64,000 bases of DNA. It comes from Desulfovibrio sp. 86. GTDB lineage: Bacteria; Desulfobacterota; Desulfovibrionia; Desulfovibrionales; Desulfovibrionaceae. The stretch covers positions 3,178,001-3,242,000 of the forward strand of contig NZ_LR738849.1 in the NCBI RefSeq assembly GCF_902702915.1, read 5' to 3'. Each line of letters starts with the position of its first letter. Positions within the stretch are counted from its first letter, which is position 1. Under the pieces are notes generated by a model, which was not told the origin of the DNA, made no database searches, and worked only from the letters and a program-made list of their open reading frames with translations. Below, in pieces: positions 36,752 through 51,083 of the stretch. Made by a program: the position numbers and the translations under genes.

Positions 36752-36964
36752 ATGGATTCACAAAAGCCTAACATTTACAGCGTTTTTGATGCACCTGTGC
36801 GCCTGAAGGAAAAGGAGCGTGTCGTCCTTACCCCTGAAGACATTGAACGGCAGTTGGACGCCGGAGCCTTTGTCATGACTCGTGAGGATGCCATCGCAGC
36901 GGGTTTCCTTTCTCCCCATGAAGAACCGGATACGGTGATCGTTGATGTGCGGGAGGGCGTATGA
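36752..36964 (+). CDS. Small acidic hypothetical protein before ardC
   Basis: The 70-residue protein starts at ATG 36752 after GGAGGCCAGT. It is acidic, with PEDIERQLDAGAFVMTREDA in the centre. It overlaps ardC by four bases, so it is surely translated with it. I recognise no family; size and position suggest an accessory or regulator of the anti-restriction gene, but nothing shows this. Confidence 0.55.
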   Translation: MDSQKPNIYSVFDAPVRLKEKERVVLTPEDIERQLDAGAFVMTREDAIAAGFLSPHEEPDTVIVDVREGV

Positions 36965-38358
36965 GCCAGGAACACACTGCGGAAAAGAAAAACCGCTTCC
37001 AGATCAGCCGGGAAGTGCAGGAAGAGTTCGTCAACTCTGTTGCCGCAAACATGCTGGCCCTCGCAGAGACGGCGGGCAAATGGCAAAAGCCCTGGGTGGC
37101 GGACAAGCCCCTGGGGATGCCGTTCTGCGCCACCACGGGCCGGGAGTACGGCGGGGCCAACATGGTCAAGCTCATGCTGACCAGCATCGTCAACGGCTAC
37201 AACGATGACAGGTGGATGACGTTTAAGCAATTTCAACAAATTCAGGCTGATCATCCTGCGCGGGATATGAAGGTGAAGAAAGGCGTCAAGGGCACCAAGC
37301 TCCTGCGGCCCGAAGAGATCACTTTCATCGTCAAAGAGGATGGCAAGTGGGAATATCTTACGGATAAGCAGATCAAGGAGTTCGCCGCCCGAAAGGAACA
37401 AGGGCTGGACGTGCCCGATGTGCAGCGCATGACCTTGTTCTATCCGTTCACTGTATTCAACGCCGCACAGATCGATGGTTTTCCGCCCAAGGAACAGCAG
37501 GCGCAACCCATGACGCCCATTGAACGTAATGACTTTGTGGAGCGATTCATCGCCTGCACGGGCATTCCGGTGGAGCACCATACGGGGGATGCCTACTACG
37601 AGCCGAAAGCTGATACGGTAAAAATGCCTTTTCCCGAGCGCTTCATCAGCACGGAAGAATACTACGCATCCAAACTGCATGAGACATACCACGCCACGGG
37701 TCACGCTATGCGGGAAAACCGCAAGGAAAAAGAAACCCCCAACATCAAGAACTACGCTTTTGAAGAAATGCGGGCAGAAATGTTCTCCATGCTGGCCGGG
37801 GCACGGTTTGACCTGCCCATGCCGGAAAGCAATTCCTCCGCATACATCAATAAGTGGAATCAGACCTTCTCAGGAGGCGATGCCAAGGCCGTGTTCCAGG
37901 CAGCGGCAGAAGCGGCCAAGGTGCTGACCATCATGCACCAGTTTGAAATGGGCGAGCAGCCCAAGGCCCAGTGGTTCCCGCGCAGTGAAAACTGGCCGGG
38001 CCTCATTGCTGATCAGGTGCAGCGTGATGCCGCCTGCGGTGCGCACATGCCCGTGCCTGCGGAACAGGTTGCGGCCAGAAGCACGGACGATCCCATGCCC
38101 CGCCCAGCGCCGTTGTCGTTCGAAGCGTCGGCGGCTGCCTTTCAGGAAGCGGATAACCCCCTGATCAAGGCCCGCATCATTCTTCAAAATCCCGATTTTC
38201 TGGAAATGGCCCTCAAGCAGGATGCCGCAACGGCCCGGTCGCTGGCCTCGCTGTGTGATTCTTTTGCCCAGACGCTGAGCATGGAACTGGACGAAAAGAA
38301 CCGGGCCGCACTGGCTCCCACCGGAACAGAAGCGCCTGCAACGCGCATGAGGATGTGA
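36961..38358 (+). CDS. ardC: ArdC-type anti-restriction protein
   Basis: The 465-residue protein has the ArdC plan. The N-terminal ssDNA-binding domain (residues about 10-130) contains WQKPWVADKPLGMPFCATTG and MTFKQFQQIQADHP. It is followed by a metalloprotease-like domain with the zinc motif KLHETYHATGHAMRENRKEK (HExxH then H) at about residue 240, and then YAFEEMRAEMFSML. A further alpha-helical C-terminal extension of about 150 residues is present. ArdC enters with the transferred strand and protects it from restriction. It is packed between the small gene and the topoisomerase with four-base overlaps. Confidence 0.88.
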   Translation: MSQEHTAEKKNRFQISREVQEEFVNSVAANMLALAETAGKWQKPWVADKPLGMPFCATTGREYGGANMVKLMLTSIVNGYNDDRWMTFKQFQQIQADHPARDMKVKKGVKGTKLLRPEEITFIVKEDGKWEYLTDKQIKEFAARKEQGLDVPDVQRMTLFYPFTVFNAAQIDGFPPKEQQAQPMTPIERNDFVERFIACTGIPVEHHTGDAYYEPKADTVKMPFPERFISTEEYYASKLHETYHATGHAMRENRKEKETPNIKNYAFEEMRAEMFSMLAGARFDLPMPESNSSAYINKWNQTFSGGDAKAVFQAAAEAAKVLTIMHQFEMGEQPKAQWFPRSENWPGLIADQVQRDAACGAHMPVPAEQVAARSTDDPMPRPAPLSFEASAAAFQEADNPLIKARIILQNPDFLEMALKQDAATARSLASLCDSFAQTLSMELDEKNRAALAPTGTEAPATRMRM

Positions 38359-42618: not shown

Positions 42619-44397
42619 ATGAGCGAACGGAAAGTACGCGGTCTGGAAGACAGAGAGGCTCAGGAACGCAAAACCCTGCTGCGCGATGTGCGTTCGCCGG
42701 TGCAGCAACTGGCGGACGCCCTCAAAAACGGCACGGTGCAGACTTCCGGCGTGTTCGGGGCGGGAGTGTGTCTGTTTGCCTTCCCTGTGGCGGCAACGCC
42801 GCTGTTCGGGCTTGGCTTGTTCTTCTTTATCCTGCGCTGTCTGTGTGTGAGGAATGAACGACTGCCGTTCCGTATGCCGCTCGGTTTGTACGGCACGGAT
42901 AGGGGCGACCCCCTGCCCGGCAGACGGGGCTTTGCCAAGCCCGAAGGCATTTTCTTTCTGGGCAATCGCTTGCAGGACAGCAAAGAGCTGTGGCTGAAGG
43001 CCAAGGATATTCTGACCCATGCGCTGCTTTTCGGCACCACCGGCTCCGGCAAAACGGAGACTCTGGTCTCGCTTGCCTACAATGCCCTCGCCACGGGCAG
43101 CGGCCTTTTCTACATCGACCCCAAAGCCAGCCCCAAGCTGGCCGTGCAGATTTGGCAGATGGCGCGGTTTCTGGGGCGTGATGATGATTTCCGGGTGCTC
43201 AACTACGGCACAAGCGGCAAGGTCAAGGGTAAATCCCCGCGCCGTCTCTCCAACACCAACAATCCCTTCACTTTCGGCAGCGCCGAAGCCCTGACGCAAC
43301 TTCTGGTGTCGCTCATGCCCGTTTCGGATGGGGCCAACAGCATCTTTGCCGACAAGGCGCAGGCCCTCATTTCCGGCGTCATGTATGCCCTGGTGGACTT
43401 GCGGGACAAGGGATTGCTCAAGCTTTCCACCAGTGTGATCCGCGACGCCCTGGCTCTGGAAAAATGCGTGGAACTGGCTCTGCGTCCTGAGTTGGACGCG
43501 GAATCGAGCGCCTCCATCAAAGCGGCCCTGGGCACGTCCGGCTGGATTGCCGGGCGGGAATTGAAGGATCAGCCTCCTTCGTTTGCGGAGCAATTCGGCT
43601 ATGCCCAATCCTACTTCGGCAAGGCGCTGTCCAGCCTGACAGATACCTACAGCCATATCTACGGTGCGGAAGACGGCGAGGTCGATTTCGCGGACGCCAT
43701 CATGCAGCGGCGCATCCTCGTAGTTTTATTGCCTTCGCTGGAAAAAGCGCCTGCGGAACTGGCGAGCCTCGGCAAAATCAGCCTGTCGGCTATCCGTAAT
43801 GCCTGCGCCGTGGGGCTGGGGGCGCAGATTGAAGGTGACGCCGCTGATGTGCTGGAAGCCCTGCCTACGGACACCATCGGCATCGGGCCGTATCTGTGCA
43901 TCGTGGACGAATACGCGGCCATCGTGACGCCGGGCTTTGAAGTGGTGCTGACGCAGGGGCGTGGCCTTGGCATTGCGGCCATTGTGGCCAGTCAGGATTA
44001 CGCGGGCATTCTGGAGGCGGACAAGAAAGGCGCACAACAGATGGTGGCCAACACATCCATAAAAATATTCATGAAGCTGCAAGACGCTGAAAAGACCTGG
44101 GAGCTGATACGCGGCCAGGCCGGGCAAGGCACGGTGGTGCGCAGCTCCGGCTTCTCGGTCAACGACAAGTCCGGCTCCGTCTACGCCGACACCATGAATA
44201 CCACCATAGAAAAAGAAGACCGCGTGGATTTACGCGATCTTCAGGAACAGATCGAGGGTGAGGCGCATTTCATCTTCTCCGGGCAGGTGGTGCGCGGAGA
44301 CATGTTCTACGCCAACCCTTCACTCAAAATGGCGCAGCTCCGTGTGCCGCAACTTATCCAACTTGGACAGGAGGTTTCCTATGATGTGGCAGCATAA
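42619..44397 (+). CDS. dotL: DotL/IcmO (TrbC)-type coupling ATPase
   Basis: The 592-residue protein is a VirD4-like coupling ATPase. Two membrane helices (GVFGAGVCLFAFPVAATPLF and GLGLFFFILRCLCV) precede the nucleotide-binding domain. Walker A is LLFGTTGSGKTETLVSLAYN and Walker B is GPYLCIVDEYAAIVTPGFE; RGLGIAAIVASQDYAGI follows. I use the ATG at 42619, with GAGGA upstream, rather than the in-frame 42565. It brings the relaxosome to the channel. The 3' end overlaps the next gene by 17 bases. Confidence 0.92.
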   Translation: MSERKVRGLEDREAQERKTLLRDVRSPVQQLADALKNGTVQTSGVFGAGVCLFAFPVAATPLFGLGLFFFILRCLCVRNERLPFRMPLGLYGTDRGDPLPGRRGFAKPEGIFFLGNRLQDSKELWLKAKDILTHALLFGTTGSGKTETLVSLAYNALATGSGLFYIDPKASPKLAVQIWQMARFLGRDDDFRVLNYGTSGKVKGKSPRRLSNTNNPFTFGSAEALTQLLVSLMPVSDGANSIFADKAQALISGVMYALVDLRDKGLLKLSTSVIRDALALEKCVELALRPELDAESSASIKAALGTSGWIAGRELKDQPPSFAEQFGYAQSYFGKALSSLTDTYSHIYGAEDGEVDFADAIMQRRILVVLLPSLEKAPAELASLGKISLSAIRNACAVGLGAQIEGDAADVLEALPTDTIGIGPYLCIVDEYAAIVTPGFEVVLTQGRGLGIAAIVASQDYAGILEADKKGAQQMVANTSIKIFMKLQDAEKTWELIRGQAGQGTVVRSSGFSVNDKSGSVYADTMNTTIEKEDRVDLRDLQEQIEGEAHFIFSGQVVRGDMFYANPSLKMAQLRVPQLIQLGQEVSYDVAA

Positions 44398-45142
44398 CAT
44401 TTTTGCAATTGTCGTTAGCACGTTGTTGTTCTTGCCTGTGTATATGGCTCATGCCGGAACGCCCATGTCGGATCGCGTTGCCGTGGAAGCCAAAGTCCGG
44501 GCCGAAGTGGGCAAAGACTTGGCTCTTCCCTATAATCCCTTTGAAACCCTGGCTGACCGTCAATGCCTGGACGGGCGGTCTGCAAAAGACTTTCAGGGCG
44601 ATCTTGTGGAGTATTGGGTCAATCTTGAATGCTCCTATTGCGGCATCCGCGAACCGCTGCAAGCCCAACGAGCCGTGCCGGATATGTGTATTGTGGTGCG
44701 GCATATTCCGACTGACCAATACGGCGAATCCCTCAAAAAGGCTCTGAGCTACGAGGCTCTCAAAAAGTTCTCTGCCAACGCGGCCAACCTCTTCTGGGAC
44801 AAGGTGCTGCCGCAGACGGCCCTGGGCATTCCCGTGCCCTATGAAGCCTCGCTCCTGCTGGCCTTTCAGGAAGCGGCCATTCCCGCTGAAAGTTTTGGCG
44901 AAGCACTTGCCGACAGCGCCACTACGATCGTCAATGAAGACATTCTCGCGGGGTATGGACGCATCAGCATTACGCCCACCTATGTTCTGGCGGGCATCCG
45001 CTTTCCTTCCTGCGACTTCACGGCAGGCCAACTGCGCGAGGCTCTATCCATCGCCAGGAAGGCCCGTGAGGGCGACACGGCGGCGCGGGATAAAGTCATT
45101 ACCATTATCACCAACGCGCAGCTCAACGAAAAAATGCTCTAA
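44381..45142 (+). CDS. DsbC/TrbB-like thiol:disulfide protein
   Basis: The 253-residue protein starts at ATG 44381 after CAGGAGGTTTCCT. It has a signal peptide (IFAIVVSTLLFLPVYMAHAG) and a thioredoxin fold with the redox motif VNLECSYCGIREPL. A cis-Pro-like segment, SITPTYVLAGIRFPSCDF, lies near the end. IncI TrbB proteins of this type isomerise disulfides in pilus or core proteins. It is the last gene of the dotM-dotL unit. Confidence 0.75.
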   Translation: MMWQHNIFAIVVSTLLFLPVYMAHAGTPMSDRVAVEAKVRAEVGKDLALPYNPFETLADRQCLDGRSAKDFQGDLVEYWVNLECSYCGIREPLQAQRAVPDMCIVVRHIPTDQYGESLKKALSYEALKKFSANAANLFWDKVLPQTALGIPVPYEASLLLAFQEAAIPAESFGEALADSATTIVNEDILAGYGRISITPTYVLAGIRFPSCDFTAGQLREALSIARKAREGDTAARDKVITIITNAQLNEKML

Positions 45143-45225: not shown

Positions 45226-45423
45226 ATGAACATGGAAGTGTCCACCATGACCTCCAAGGGGCAGATCACCATCCCCGTGGCGGTTCGCAAGAAACTGGAT
45301 TTGCAACAGGGTGACAAGGTTGTCTTTATTGAGGACGACTCCCCCAAGGGGGGCATCCGCATACTGAACGCGGCCACACTGTCCTTTGGCAAAAGCGGGG
45401 AGGTTGTGACCGTACCAAGGTAG
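45226..45423 (+). CDS. AbrB/MazE-family DNA-binding protein (no cognate toxin)
   Basis: The 65-residue protein is a swapped-hairpin AbrB domain: TMTSKGQITIPVAVRKKLDL, then QQGDKVVFIEDD. The ribosome site is AAGGAGCACCTC. Usually these are antitoxins, but the next gene is the giant methylase-helicase only five bases later, and no toxin gene is present. It may therefore be a free-standing repressor of that gene through the repeats at 45182-45209. Confidence 0.75.
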   Translation: MNMEVSTMTSKGQITIPVAVRKKLDLQQGDKVVFIEDDSPKGGIRILNAATLSFGKSGEVVTVPR

Positions 45424-45428
45424 GCATT

Positions 45429-48400
45429 ATGGCGCGGCCACGCAAGCAGACCTATGACCCACGGCAACTGAGTTTCAATTTTGACGTGGCAGCGGATCAA
45501 ATTGAACAACTTCGGCGCGAGAACGCACACGCCGACAAGAAGGAGGAACACCATGCTCGACCGACAGACCAACCCGCTGGACATCGCCCGCACAGTGCTG
45601 CGCCCAGAAACCCTGCGCGAAGTACGCCGGGGCGGGTTCCCCAACTCAGCCTATTTGATTCTGGATCGCTGGGCGCTGAACCAGCCGGACGATCTGCGCC
45701 GTCTGGAAGCGAGAGGGGAAGTTTCGTTTCTGGTGACGCTGGATCAGCAATGTACGAGGGAAGCGAACGTGCTGAACTCGGATTCGGCCTGGGAAGCCAG
45801 CCGCCAGGGGATGAGCGACTGGGAGATTTTGCAGAACGCCGGGGTGGATACGAGCCTGAGAATTACCATATAGGCCCGGACGACCGGCTTGGCCACGGCG
45901 GCGCAAAGACCAAGTTTGCCGACAACATCGCCGCCATCCGCCTGCTCAAGGATTTGCAGGAACGCAAGGTGGATGTGGCCGGGCCGGATGAAAAAAAGGT
46001 TCTGGTGCGCTATGTGGGCTGGGGGGGACTCCCCCAGGCCTTTGACGCCCGCAACGAAAAGTGGGCTGCGGAATATCAGGAGCTGCAAAGCCTGCTTGCG
46101 CCGGACGAGTACGCCAAGGCCCGTCGTTCCACCCAGGACGCGCATTTCACGTCCGAAACCGTCATTCAGGGTATTTACCAGGGCCTGAACACCCTTGGTT
46201 TGCGTGAAGGCGGGCCGCTGCGCGTTCTGGAGCCTTCTGCGGGCATCGGCAACTTCATGGGGTTGATGCCCCAGGGCTACAATGCCGACATTCTGGCCGT
46301 GGAACTTGACCCCACCACAGCGGCCATTTCGCGCTATCTCTACCCCAAGGCCCGGCACCTGAACAACGGCTTTCAGAATGTGGAGCTTCAGCGGGCCAAC
46401 TTTGATCTTGTCGTCGGCAACCCGCCCTTTGGCAAGCAGACCCTCTACGATCCCAACTTCCCTGAGCTGCGCGGCTTTTCCATCCACAATTACTTTCTGG
46501 CAAAATCCGTCAGTCTGCTGCGCCCTGGCGGCATCGGGGCCTTTGTGGTCAGCCGCTTCTTCATGGACGCGGCAGACCCCAGCGCACGGGCGCATATTGC
46601 GGAGTCCGCCGACCTTCTGGGGGCCGTGCGCCTGCCGGAGACAGCTTTTCGGCAGAACGCCCTCACGGACGTGACCACCGATATTCTCTTCTTCCGCAAA
46701 CATGACGGTCAGCCTTTACGCAGCAAGGATTGGGTGCAGACGGCCACGGTGGAAGCTGAAGACCTGAAAGAAGGCGGCACCCGTCCTGCCACCATCAACA
46801 AATACTTTGTCGAACTGCCCGGCCAGATCATCGGCAGCATGGTCTATTCGGGCGGCATGTTTCAGGACGCGCTCAACTGTGTGGCTCCATCAGACATTGA
46901 TTTGGGTGCGGAAATTGCCAAGCGGGTGCAGGTGCTGCCGCCCATGCAGTATGTGCCAAGGGAAGAAAGCCCGGCAGCGGCCGTCAGCGAAGCCCGCAAT
47001 GAAGCCTTCATCGCCTCCGACTACTTTCAGTCCCTGAAAATGGGCGCGTTCTGCGTGGAGCCGCAGAGCCGCAAAATCGTTTTCAAGGCTGCCGGTGGTT
47101 TTGGCGACAGCACCTACGAAGCGGTGCCCATCAAGAATGATACGGCCCGGCAACGCCTTGCGGCCATGATTCAGGTGCGCGACAGCCTGCGCGACCTTCT
47201 CAATCTGGAAAAAAATGACGCAGAAGAGAAAATGATTGAAGGCGCACGGCGTCAGCTCAACGTGCAGTATGACAATTTTGTGCGCCGCCACGGGCACCTC
47301 AATTCCCAGACCAACCGCAGCCTCATGCGCGAAGACCCGGAGCATTCGCTGCTGGAGTCGCTGGAACTGGAGTACGACAAGGGGCTTTCCAAAGACCTGG
47401 CCAGGCGTCAGGAGCGGTCTCCGCGTCCGGCATCGGCCCGCAAGGCCGCTATTTTCCGGCAGCGGGTGTTAAAACCCACACAGATAGTGGATCGGGCCGA
47501 CACGGCCAAGGACGCCCTGGTCATCAGCCTGCGCGAATCGGGCAAGGTGGATTTTGCCCGCATGAACCAGTTGCTGCACCGCCCGGCAGAAGCCATTCAG
47601 AAGGAATTGCAGGACGAAGGCCTGATTTTCCGCAACCCGGCCAGCGCGGAATGGGAAATCCGCGACAAATATCTCACCGGCAATGTGCGCGACAAGCTCC
47701 ACAGGGCGCGGGCTGTGGCAGTAGACAACCCGCAGTATCAGCCCAATGTGGAAGCCCTCACCGCCGCCATGCCGCCAGAGATCGAGGCCGTGGACATTGG
47801 CGTGAAGTTCGGTTCCACCTGGGTGCCCGGCGAGGTGCTCTCCGACTTCATCGAAGAGCGCATCCACGGAGGCCGGGGGCATCAGAGCGTCAAATACGTT
47901 CCCATTCTGGGGCGCTGGGAAGCCAAGGTGTCCATCTATGACCGGTCGGCCAATACGGAGGTATGGGGCATTCCCGAATACCCTGCGGAAAAAATTCTTG
48001 AATCTCTGCTCTCCAATCGCCCCATCAAGGTGGAAAAGGAGAGCGGTGCCTATGACGAGCAAGACCGCCCTATCATGGTGGTGGATCAGGAACTCACCGC
48101 CGCCGCCATGCAGAAGGCCGATGAGGTGAAGCAAGCCTTTCTGGATTGGGTATGGACGGATGACGAGCGGCGCACCATGCTGGCCACGCTGTATAATGAA
48201 CGCTTCAATACCCATGTGCCGCCGCGCTATGACGGCTCGCATGTGCAGCTTGTGGGCGCGTCTTCTGACGTGACCCTGCGACCGCATCAGAAGGATGTGG
48301 TCTGGCGCGGCATTCAGGAAGGCACGGCGCTGTTTGACCACGTTGTGGGCGCGGGTAAGACGATGGCCTGCATTGCTACCATCATGGAATCCAAGCGCAT

Positions 48401-51083
48401 GGGCTTTTGCGCCAAGCCGATGGTGGTGGTGCCCAACCACCTGCTGTACCAGTGGCGAGATGAGTTTTACCGATTGTATCCCGGTGCCAACATTCTGGTG
48501 GCCGACAAGACCGACTTCACAAAGCAGAACCGCGAACGCCTCTTCAGCCGGGTGGCCACCGGCGATTGGGACGCCGTGGTGGTGGCGCATTCCAGCTTCA
48601 AAAAAATCGACATGCCCCGCGATATGCAGGAAGAAATCCTGCAAGAACAGATTGATGCCGTCATTGAAGCCATTGCCGACGCCAAGGAAAACAACGGGGG
48701 TCGGGCCACCATCAAGCAGCTTGAAAAACAGCGGGAGAAGATGGAAACCCGCTATGAGGCGCTCATGGCCAAAACCGGCCCCAAGGACAGGGCCGTGGAT
48801 TTTGGCGACTTAGGGGTGGACGCGCTCTTTGTGGACGAGAGCCACGAGTTCAAGAACCTGAGCTATACAACCACGATGAACGTGTCGGGCCTTGGCAATA
48901 TCACAGGTTCTGCCAAGGCTTTGGACATGTTCATCAAGTGCCGGTATCTGCAAAAAAAGAATGATGGCCGGGGCGTGTATTTCATGACCGGCACCCCCAT
49001 CAGCAACACCATTGCCGAAGTGTATACGCTGCAACGCTATTTGCAGTCTGATGAGCTGAAAAGCAAGGGCATCGAGTATTTTGACGCCTGGGCATCCACC
49101 TTCGGGCAGATCACCAACGGCTGGGAACTTGACGCCACGGGGGTGAATTACAAGCTGAAATCGCGTTTTGCCAGCTTTCAGAACGTGCCGGAGTTGCTCT
49201 CCATGTACCGCTCCTTTGCGGACGTGGTGACGAAAAACGATCTGGACGAACAGGCCAAGCAGGCCGGTATGCGCCCCCTGACACCTCCGATCACGGGCGG
49301 CAAGCCGCATAATCATGTGGTGGAGCGTTCCGGCGACCAGGCTGTCTACATGGATCAGATCATCCACCGTATGGAGCATCTGCCCAAAGACCCTCGCATC
49401 GACAATCCGCTGAAAATTACCAATGACGCCCGCAAGGCCGGGCTGGATTATCGTCTCATTGACTCGGAAGCCGGAGACAATGACGCTTCCAAGGTCAACG
49501 CGGCGGTGGATCGCATCGTGCAGATTTGGCAGGACACGGCGGCGGACAAGGGGACGCAGCTCGTGTTCTGCGATTTGTCCACACCCAAGGGCGTGGGGTC
49601 GGCAGCGCCTGCCCCCGTCCCCGGGTTGGAGTTTGTGGAAGAGGACTTTGGAGCGGGCGCGTCTGAAGACGTGGGGGATTTTTCGGATCGGGATGACGCA
49701 GCGCCTGACACGGATTCGGTGGAACCCGGCGACGATGACGGTGTGGACACATCCGTGGCCGCAGACATGGACGCCTGCGTGGCCGCTGATGCGCGTTTTT
49801 CCGTTTATGAGGACATGCGGCAAAAGCTCATGGAGCGCGGCATTCCCGCCGACGAGATCGCCTTCATCCACGATGCCAATACCGACATCCGCAAGGCCAA
49901 GCTGTTCAGCGACATGCAGGCGGGCCGGGTGCGCATCCTGCTTGGCTCCACGGCCAAAATGGGCGCGGGCATGAACGTGCAGAAACGCCTTGTGGCCGCG
50001 CATCATCTGGACGCGCCGTGGAGGCCAAGTGATCTTGAGCAACGCAACGGGCGCATCATCCGCCAGGGCAATAGCCTGTATGAGCGCGACCCGGACAAGT
50101 TTTCCGTAGGTATCTATTATTACGCCACAAAACAGACATATGACGCCAGGATGTGGCAGGTCATAGAGCAAAAAGCCGCCGCCATCGAGCAATTCCGCAA
50201 GGGCGACCTGCTCCAGCGCGTCATTGACGATGTGCAGTCCGAAGCCGCCAATGCGGCAGACATGAAGGCAGCGGCCTCCGGCAACCCGCTCATCCTCATG
50301 CAGGTGAAGCTGGCCAGCGACTTGCGCAAGCTGGAAGCCCTGTATTCGCAGCACCAGCGGTCGCAGCACCGCCTGCGCGACCGCCTCAAATGGCTTGGCG
50401 CTGCCGAAGAGAGGCTTGCCAAGGCTCAGGAAGCCTACGCCGCCAACTGTTCACAGCGCGACAGCCACACCCGCACCTTCAGCGAAAAGGGCAAGGAGCG
50501 CATTCGGCTGGAGTGGTTCAAGGACGGCAAAGTGCTGGGGGAGAAAAACAGCGAGCAGATCCAAAACATCTTGCGTGACGGCGTAAAGGACATCACGCGG
50601 GAAGCGCGAGCAAAGCCCACCCTGGGCACCTACCGGGGCTTTGAGGTGTCCATGCTGCGCTCGTCACTTGGGGCGGGCGGGGACGGCTTTCGCCTGGCCC
50701 TCAAAGGCAAGGGTGAACAGGAGTTTCAGCCCGACAATTTGGTCTACGGCTTTGACGAAAAGTTCAGCCTCTCCGGCATGTTTCAGCGCCTGGATAACTT
50801 TCTGGATAAGGGCCTTGAACAGGCGCACCAGACCTATCAAACCAACGTGCGCCAGGAAATGGCGGAATTGGCTACGGTCAAGGCCGCTCTGGGGCAGGAG
50901 TTCCCGCAGCAAGGCGAACTGGCCCTGGTGCGCGAGAACCACGGTGCCGTCATGCGCGAATTGAAGCGTATGCAGGATGAACCGGGCTATGTACCAGAAT
51001 GGCGACTTAGAACGACATTGCCTGAAGCACAAGAAAGTCTGAAGAGGGCTACAGACTTTCCTTCAGTGCCTTGCCGGGGGTGA
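45429..51083 (+). CDS. DarB-like N6-methylase/SNF2-helicase fusion (anti-restriction candidate)
   Basis: The frame gives 1884 residues. After a low-complexity N-terminus a methyltransferase domain follows from about residue 165: RVLEPSAGIGNFMGLMPQ is motif I and DLVVGNPPFGKQTLYDP is the NPPF catalytic motif. The helicase part starts near residue 950 with FDHVVGAGKTMACIATIMES (Walker A), ALFVDESHEFKNLSYT (DESH) and STAKMGAGMNVQKRLVAAHH, then RQGNSLYERDPDKFSVGIYY. A C-terminal helical domain of about 350 residues ends the protein. Phage P1 DarB has the same order and helps foreign DNA escape type I restriction; ArdC is encoded nearby. In 45553-45873 this frame has poor codon usage and a good out-of-frame gene lies there, so the true start of the methylase-helicase may be later. 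The 3' end overlaps the HU gene by 35 bases. Confidence 0.8.
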   Translation: MARPRKQTYDPRQLSFNFDVAADQIEQLRRENAHADKKEEHHARPTDQPAGHRPHSAAPRNPARSTPGRVPQLSLFDSGSLGAEPAGRSAPSGSERGSFVSGDAGSAMYEGSERAELGFGLGSQPPGDERLGDFAERRGGYEPENYHIGPDDRLGHGGAKTKFADNIAAIRLLKDLQERKVDVAGPDEKKVLVRYVGWGGLPQAFDARNEKWAAEYQELQSLLAPDEYAKARRSTQDAHFTSETVIQGIYQGLNTLGLREGGPLRVLEPSAGIGNFMGLMPQGYNADILAVELDPTTAAISRYLYPKARHLNNGFQNVELQRANFDLVVGNPPFGKQTLYDPNFPELRGFSIHNYFLAKSVSLLRPGGIGAFVVSRFFMDAADPSARAHIAESADLLGAVRLPETAFRQNALTDVTTDILFFRKHDGQPLRSKDWVQTATVEAEDLKEGGTRPATINKYFVELPGQIIGSMVYSGGMFQDALNCVAPSDIDLGAEIAKRVQVLPPMQYVPREESPAAAVSEARNEAFIASDYFQSLKMGAFCVEPQSRKIVFKAAGGFGDSTYEAVPIKNDTARQRLAAMIQVRDSLRDLLNLEKNDAEEKMIEGARRQLNVQYDNFVRRHGHLNSQTNRSLMREDPEHSLLESLELEYDKGLSKDLARRQERSPRPASARKAAIFRQRVLKPTQIVDRADTAKDALVISLRESGKVDFARMNQLLHRPAEAIQKELQDEGLIFRNPASAEWEIRDKYLTGNVRDKLHRARAVAVDNPQYQPNVEALTAAMPPEIEAVDIGVKFGSTWVPGEVLSDFIEERIHGGRGHQSVKYVPILGRWEAKVSIYDRSANTEVWGIPEYPAEKILESLLSNRPIKVEKESGAYDEQDRPIMVVDQELTAAAMQKADEVKQAFLDWVWTDDERRTMLATLYNERFNTHVPPRYDGSHVQLVGASSDVTLRPHQKDVVWRGIQEGTALFDHVVGAGKTMACIATIMESKRMGFCAKPMVVVPNHLLYQWRDEFYRLYPGANILVADKTDFTKQNRERLFSRVATGDWDAVVVAHSSFKKIDMPRDMQEEILQEQIDAVIEAIADAKENNGGRATIKQLEKQREKMETRYEALMAKTGPKDRAVDFGDLGVDALFVDESHEFKNLSYTTTMNVSGLGNITGSAKALDMFIKCRYLQKKNDGRGVYFMTGTPISNTIAEVYTLQRYLQSDELKSKGIEYFDAWASTFGQITNGWELDATGVNYKLKSRFASFQNVPELLSMYRSFADVVTKNDLDEQAKQAGMRPLTPPITGGKPHNHVVERSGDQAVYMDQIIHRMEHLPKDPRIDNPLKITNDARKAGLDYRLIDSEAGDNDASKVNAAVDRIVQIWQDTAADKGTQLVFCDLSTPKGVGSAAPAPVPGLEFVEEDFGAGASEDVGDFSDRDDAAPDTDSVEPGDDDGVDTSVAADMDACVAADARFSVYEDMRQKLMERGIPADEIAFIHDANTDIRKAKLFSDMQAGRVRILLGSTAKMGAGMNVQKRLVAAHHLDAPWRPSDLEQRNGRIIRQGNSLYERDPDKFSVGIYYYATKQTYDARMWQVIEQKAAAIEQFRKGDLLQRVIDDVQSEAANAADMKAAASGNPLILMQVKLASDLRKLEALYSQHQRSQHRLRDRLKWLGAAEERLAKAQEAYAANCSQRDSHTRTFSEKGKERIRLEWFKDGKVLGEKNSEQIQNILRDGVKDITREARAKPTLGTYRGFEVSMLRSSLGAGGDGFRLALKGKGEQEFQPDNLVYGFDEKFSLSGMFQRLDNFLDKGLEQAHQTYQTNVRQEMAELATVKAALGQEFPQQGELALVRENHGAVMRELKRMQDEPGYVPEWRLRTTLPEAQESLKRATDFPSVPCRG
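45553..45873 (+). CDS. Out-of-frame nested gene in the 5' part of the darB-like gene
   Basis: A 106-residue protein has an AAGGAGGAACACC-ATG start and ordinary protein composition (ARTVLRPETLREVRRGGFPN, NSAYLILDRWALNQPDDLRR, LEARGEVSFLVTLDQQ). By eye its codons are those preferred in the conjugation genes (CTG, CGC, GAA, GCC). The overlapping long frame instead uses GGA, CGA and AGT and reads as Ser/Gly/Pro/Arg-rich low complexity. Either both frames are used, or this small protein is the true product here and the helicase gene begins near 45870. I do not recognise its family. Confidence 0.55.
   Translation: MLDRQTNPLDIARTVLRPETLREVRRGGFPNSAYLILDRWALNQPDDLRRLEARGEVSFLVTLDQQCTREANVLNSDSAWEASRQGMSDWEILQNAGVDTSLRITI

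Follow-up and report, generated by a model that had tools for sequence, protein, structure and literature searches.

A small gene nested in the +1 frame of a DarB-like methylase-helicase gene of Desulfovibrio sp. 86, with homologues in phages, plasmids and chromosomal elements

Well-supported overprinted genes are few in bacteria and are usually young and narrow in their distribution. Classical nested genes are comS within srfA and Rz1 within Rz of phage lambda. The locus described here resembles both pairs in that a small protein is encoded in a different frame of a larger gene, but other families are involved, and the nested gene is better conserved and also occurs alone. The nearest precedent is the ShiLan domain, a hidden out-of-frame HNH endonuclease in phage methylases (PMC11855218). 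It is presented there as a homing insertion with a disjunct distribution, situated in the third frame. As in ShiLan, a second gene lies in another frame inside a methylase gene and the host frame is kept open; in contrast to it, the gene studied here occupies the +1 frame at a constant site, shows no HNH match and is also present in plasmids and chromosomal elements. An overlapping gene linked with antirestriction, ardD, was reported antisense within tniA of Tn5053 (PMC3533173) and later doubted, its anti-restriction effect being attributed to DNA sites (PMC11109961). The gene nested here shares with ardD the link with antirestriction, but ardD is antisense and unrelated.

The available part of the description of LPD36-methylase-SNF2 polyvalent proteins includes DarB of phage P1 in this class, assigns a GXGU motif to LPD36 and mentions no nested gene (PMC5512222); the mechanism of DarB is given as still undefined (PMC11109961). 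A DarB-like gene is located in the window, i.e. the whole stretch of 64,000 nucleotides from Desulfovibrio sp. 86 that was analysed. It extends from 45429 to 51083 (+ strand) and encodes 1884 amino acids with N6-adenine methylase and SNF2/SF2 helicase domains. Eco57I and N6_Mtase and, towards the C-terminus, SNF2-rel_dom, ResIII and Helicase_C all scored above the Pfam cut-off. The start of the methylase core (45864-46628, +), which served as query, holds GHGG at 45891-45902. The core also contains NPPF; N186, P188 and F189 are invariant and P187 is nearly so in 11 aligned cores, in which GxGG is invariant as well. An LPD36 profile match was not obtained in the Pfam scan, and a search for LPD23 in the window's own genome gave no match. 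Like P1 DarB and its class, the long protein combines NPPF and an SNF2-type helicase on a mobile element, and its GHGG would fit GXGU. It is a DarB-like protein of the methylase-SNF2 antirestriction class, with a putative role in restriction protection. Unlike the window gene, P1 darB starts almost at the core, and a nested gene was looked for there and not found.

An AbrB/MazE-like small gene (45226-45423, +) stops 5 bases 5′ of the long ATG, and its end at 45423 is compatible with the upstream start of the long gene at 45429. A TraG/TrbC-like coupling protein, a DotM-like protein, an ArdC/zincin antirestriction protein and a topoisomerase are encoded near the long gene, and because of these genes we infer a conjugative element with an IncI/Dot-like system as the setting. 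The protein with ArdC N-terminal and zincin metallopeptidase domains (36961-38358, +) is a second antirestriction candidate of the element. A further ORF (44258-45142, +) has a possible signal peptide and an ECSYCG motif, and has no match in Pfam or NCBIfam. Its product is perhaps a periplasmic thiol protein belonging to the transfer system; the GTG start given for the ORF is probably too early and overlaps the coupling-protein gene.

An ORF of 106 codons from ATG to TAG (45553-45873, +) lies in the +1 phase of the long frame. An earlier note on this DNA had ascribed to it a ribosome site, natural composition and host-like codon use; the ribosome site and the codon use were recovered. AAGGAGG is found at 45540-45546 (+), within the long frame and six bases 5′ of the small ATG. 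The codon index was 0.66 for the small frame, 0.37 for the long frame over the same bases, 0.47 for the third frame and 0.72 for the helicase body elsewhere, relative to six stretches of the window taken as confident genes, the helicase body being one of them. GC content of the small gene by codon position (0.63/0.45/0.74) is close to that of the helicase body (0.64/0.40/0.73). The long frame in the overlap (45552-45872, +) has poor codon use and, as the earlier note had stated, is rich in Ser, Gly, Pro and Arg (G 16%, S 12%, P 11%, A 11%, R 10%). Its composition suggests that it is probably a disordered linker.

Comparison of the window with its nearest relative (L009) revealed 13, 6 and 28 substitutions at the first, second and third codon positions of the small frame. 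Since the third position of the small frame is the first position of the long frame, this pattern is the opposite of selection on the long frame alone. The small frame is 87%, the long frame 68% and the core 89% identical between the two copies. For wider comparison the homologues were grouped into type A (window, plasmids and chromosomal elements), type B (viral) and a third group, type C; substitutions were highest at position 3 of the small frame in 12 of 12 identity bins across the three types. Small-frame identity exceeded long-frame identity in all 428 type A pairs tabulated, in 237 of 238 type B pairs and in 688 of 695 type C pairs, with pairs binned by small-frame identity from 0.30 to 0.95, which favours the small frame and leaves outside 7 of 435, 168 of 406 and 410 of 1105 pairs, respectively. 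When pairs were binned by core identity instead, the small frame was still above the long frame in all six bins (core identity at least 0.50). The 49 distinct type C rows kept in the pair table were required to show a W-x-E/K/Q pattern in the first 45 residues, counted from an automatically chosen start. The earlier note had named conservation of the long frame alone as the case against the small gene; no such homologue occurred among the nested plasmid and chromosomal ones (428 pairs). The small frame evolves as a protein-coding gene, and its conservation exceeds that of the containing frame, which is unusual. At the level of sequence, the 106-codon ORF is confirmed as a genuine gene.

Comparison by hhalign shows types A and B to be homologous (probability 97.8%, E 6.9e-13). 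At a threshold of 1e-3, type B profiles recognised 28 of 55 type C members and type A profiles 7 of 55, and type C profiles recognised 1 of 30 type A and 5 of 28 type B members; profiles of the long and third frames recognised at most three members of another type. One over-long type B row (at least 130 residues) and the partial or broken type A rows L019 and L049 were left out of the profiles. Direct profile comparison of type C with A or B reached only 45-49%, and type C is probably, not certainly, a distant branch of the same family. For the small protein of the window AlphaFold2 predicted an all-alpha fold of seven helices (pLDDT 89.4, pTM 0.79); the pLDDT rose from 64 in the first model, based on 3 sequences, to 89 once the viral type B rows were added. 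The window protein had no match in Pfam, NCBIfam or PHROGs, falling below every listed cut-off of the former two. Among 27 members of the small family that were scanned, the best E-values were 0.0065 (Pfam) and 0.0039 (NCBIfam), for which cut-offs were not shown. Sequence searches of solved structures returned no match and then a single one at E 0.86. Fold searches gave no E-value below 5; one of 9 aligned chains reached Z 4.0, which is uninformative for a helical protein.

In the phylum, 4 of 395 genomes contain a relative of the small protein (31-87% identical). A profile search of the order gave hits in 22 of 348 genomes, and both counts include the own genome. Among 72,556 plasmid records 65 contained a relative, 62 of them covering at least 80% of the query, with 34-48% identity in the 60 of 65 records listed. 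Most of the nested homologues printed have a purine-rich site in front of the small ATG. Two relatives stem from Mailhella, a genus of the Desulfovibrionaceae, and one of them is identical in DNA to a window-family copy (L006, L068). On several plasmids RefSeq calls the small gene and places the helicase start after the overlap; plasmid annotations frequently show the small gene as a hypothetical protein beside a shortened helicase, or the reverse. The first three phage records inspected carry no annotated feature for the nested ORF, which in phage PBC5 falls under 'orf33: unknown'. No description of the nested gene was found among the papers listed by full-text searches of open-licence PMC papers.

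With the core of the long protein as query, 122 of 50,697 phage records matched; several of the listed ones bear the name 'DarB-like antirestriction'. A tblastn search of the same records with the small protein of the window gave no match, probably because the phage versions are too diverged, and viral scans with this protein or its first alignment confirmed no relatives. Weak best matches (E 0.019, 0.0033 and 0.42) at the same site and in the same phase were present in three phage DarB-like genes (L084-L086). The nested proteins of these three have roughly half of their residues in common, and 21 phage records, its own included, match one of them. A viral set was then assembled from 80 loci fetched by the core alone (best 80 of 246 confirmed) and 20 fetched by the phage small protein. 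The 103 viral loci include near-copies, with 83 distinct small sequences, and all of them contain the core. An iterated phage profile, built on the same loci that it scored, matched 69 of the 103 (E ≤ 1e-3), all in the +1 phase and free of long-phase stops; the remaining 34, all core-fetched, had their best match to a sister type.

The type B set was chosen by position and afterwards tested without close relatives. In a six-frame search with profiles lacking any member at least 70% identical to the tested locus, a related nested ORF was found just 5′ of the core in the +1 phase in 79 of the 80 core-fetched loci (best 80 of 246; E ≤ 1e-3). In the 80th (L098) a related ORF lies 2.8 kb upstream, also in the +1 phase. 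A second sample of more distant loci (best 80 of 350 confirmed), overlapping the first in at least the contigs of L258/L114 and L266/L110, yielded 46 loci with a hit at the site, 10 with a hit elsewhere and 24 without a hit at E ≤ 1e-3; the 56 hits contained no long-phase stop. The 10 hits elsewhere are all in the +1 phase to the core ORF used: five (L204, L211, L213, L237 and L270) lie just 5′ of the fetched match, the core position having been mis-set, and the other five lie 1.5-2 kb upstream. L189, L190, L023 and L033 had no significant nested-ORF match near the core, and L020 reached only E 0.0075. ATG with a strict ribosome site was present at 45 of 57 distinct type C starts compared with 29 of 705 control ATGs, where up to 16 codon positions were tried per start and single ATGs were counted in the control; the figure for type B was 26 of 29, but the start was partly chosen by that criterion. 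Some arrangements deviate. In a gut phage scaffold (L191:20-385) the type C small gene is separate, 2.1 kb 5′ of the methylase core. In phage PBC5 (L180) the small-frame domain does not stand alone but is in frame with a 4.3-kb upstream ORF, and PHROG 938 (named endolysin, 2185 positions) also ends in the small-protein domain.

Free-standing small genes with no adjoining core are found on plasmids of Pseudomonas, Xanthomonas and Burkholderia (L047, L049, L051). They adjoin DotA/TraY; a TraI relaxase is listed in two of these plasmids and a MobA mobilisation protein in the third. In each case the small gene overlaps the end of an 84-aa gene, of which the L051 one has no Pfam match; the Xanthomonas copy has an internal stop. 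Four tandem copies, each with an AAGGAG-type site, lie 3′ of relaxase and NikA/MobC-like genes in genome G487 (contig 3, L082:2506-3828), and the methylase core was not found in the loci flanking this array (L079 and L081). Since the free copies lack an adjoining core, the small gene need not act with one. In a tree of the small genes, the tandem array groups with the nested copy L078 with full support, and L047 and L051 form a pair inside an unresolved fan of nested copies; the tree does not decide the order of origin.

The earlier note had left the choice between overprinting and a wrongly extended helicase start. Our data support overprinting, with coding evidence in both frames that is stronger for the small one. 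Long-phase stops were absent from all 40 distinct nested copies of plasmids and chromosomes (31 and 9 further), 'nested' meaning that a methylase core follows downstream, irrespective of stops. The first set for this count comprised 34 distinct small-gene sequences, 31 nested and 3 free. In contrast, all seven free-standing copies carry such stops: 5, 2 and 3 in L047, L049 and L051, and 4, 3, 4 and 4 in the tandem array (L079/L082). Synonymous resampling predicts about 2-8 stops per copy and, rows summed, about 150 in the 31 nested copies; the stricter permutation of each copy's own codons predicts about 67, these pooled counts not being independent because the sequences are related. The free copies fit the resampling (5 vs. 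5.0, 2 vs. 3.1 and 3 vs. 4.4 expected), with a nearly flat codon table built from only 13-18 codons, and L051 with its three stops is above its own-codon expectation of 0.66. For the window copy alone the stop test is weak (P 0.02 by resampling, 0.14 by permutation).

Compared with a null of the same core divergence, the long frame showed the higher identity in 115 of 121 pairs (mean 0.398 vs. 0.346), but with P ≤ 0.05 in only 44; for the window and L009 the values were 0.676 vs. 0.530. The amino acid sequence of the long frame is poorly conserved in the overlap, and the constraint there is mainly that of staying open. The N-terminus 5′ of the small gene (45429-45551, +) is basic, has a codon index of 0.62, contains QLSFNFD at 45465-45485 and is kept in homologues, where a K/R-rich start is followed by QLSLFD, QLSFxF or QxxFDF. 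Enterobacterial plasmids are an exception, their long start lying only 28-40 bases before the small start. Most of the window-family homologues printed have an extra conserved stretch 5′ of the small gene, in frame with the methylase. This stretch (LGLNGxGxSVYE...DGxxxTPExLF...YLTxxEV; most window-family homologues of L002-L037 and L060-L077) occurs twice in L064 and is absent from the window copy and L009. A query with the long-frame N-terminus matched 13 of 199 genomes of the family, and in 99 of 103 viral loci the long frame is open for at least 1000 nt 5′ of the small gene. The containing frame is kept as coding across the overlap; by computation, a coding signal is present in both frames, and site, phase and partner are conserved.

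Two further observations concern the long gene. QLxLF is given as the beta-clamp-binding consensus (PMC4549789). Inside the overprinted stretch the long frame of the window contains QLSLFD (45642-45659, +), an exact QLSLF match at a position that is not conserved; many window-family tails carry QLSLFD near the N-terminus and others QLSFxF, QLGFDF, QMTFDF or similar, and a QLxLF-type motif is absent from the enterobacterial tails. Beta-clamp binding by the long tail may be followed up as a lead only. Moreover, at least three nested pairs exist in broken or split helicase genes, namely in L002 (G317, contig 10), L019/L078 (G457) and L038 (a Burkholderia plasmid), where the overlap stays open though the downstream helicase frame is broken or split.

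We consider it likely that this is a true and old overprinted pair, in which the linker was probably laid over the small gene and the small protein may serve as an accessory of the DarB-like protein. One mRNA would carry the DarB-like gene and, in its 5′ part and in the +1 frame, the small gene, preceded by a ribosome site of its own. Translation from 45429 would read the overlap as a flexible linker that joins the conserved basic N-terminal tail to the methylase-SNF2 core, and internal initiation at 45553 would produce the separate 106-aa all-alpha protein, so that both products would be made; they may interact directly. Because the small frame shows the higher conservation and is also found by itself, the small gene probably came first, and the linker frame was superimposed on it or fused through it. 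The small protein would be co-made with the DarB-type protein when transferred DNA needs protection in a new host. Such an accessory antirestriction role is the most likely one by association, because of the company of the gene: the methylase-helicase in viruses, and transfer, relaxase or mobilisation genes beside the free copies. The absence of a hit in P1 darB and in 24 of 80 distant viral loci indicates that the nested gene is not essential to every DarB. In a broader and more tentative form, to which we give somewhat less than even confidence, the nested gene would encode a hidden third component of DarB-type protection, present in the majority of this branch's methylase-helicase genes, whether of phages, plasmids or conjugative elements. 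This old, separately folded all-alpha protein would have kept its gene while upstream domains were fused to the core by read-through in the other frame, an arrangement that would keep the genes together and couple their synthesis.

The small gene could also be accompanied by a shorter helicase only, the long frame from 45429 to 45873 being an untranslated accident. RefSeq has chosen the later helicase start on several plasmids, and the poor codon use and low identity of the long frame in the overlap point the same way. The conserved in-frame N-terminus upstream, the complete lack of stops in 40 nested copies as opposed to stops in seven of seven free ones, and the long upstream open frames of the viral loci make a start after the overlap improbable, and we reject it. 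Conversely, only the long frame might be real and the small ORF a GC-driven open frame that is conserved because the DNA is; long overlapping ORFs are indeed common in the window, where 135 of at least 120 aa are listed. A chance ORF of this kind is rejected as extremely improbable in view of the substitutions peaking at the small third and thus long first position, the strong cross-type homology of the small frame, of which the long and third frames show almost nothing, and the free-standing copies.

A selfish insertion similar to the out-of-frame HNH elements of phage methylases (PMC11855218) would look much the same on the surface, since there too a methylase gene conceals a second gene in a stretch that stays open in frame. 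No endonuclease or HNH family is among the Pfam matches listed, however, occupancy in the first viral sample is near-universal and not patchy (79 of 80, best 80 of 246), and the site is upstream of the core and not within it; homing was rejected on these grounds and appears very improbable. A real possibility, which we rate a little below even, is that both genes are genuine and share only a transcript, the small protein acting apart from the methylase-helicase in conjugation, DNA processing or regulation. The free copies beside DotA/TraY, TraI relaxase and MobA on three plasmids and the four-copy array 3′ of relaxase and NikA/MobC-like genes favour such an independent role, and the near-constant position beside the methylase core in viral loci argues against it.

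For the DarB-like genes, the preferred reading of an overprinted pair means that a single family keeps one nesting site and one phase across phages, plasmids and chromosomal elements, with the nested gene as the conserved partner. The same double-coded arrangement recurs in many related genes and has mostly gone unnoticed, and in a large class of antirestriction genes the annotation of one of the two frames is often wrong. Studies of such genes may have carried or disrupted a second gene without knowing it. The locus family also provides a large natural data set on the mutual constraint of overlapping genes, in which the free-standing copies are controls. In elements that carry the nested gene, the mechanism of DarB may have a missing partner.
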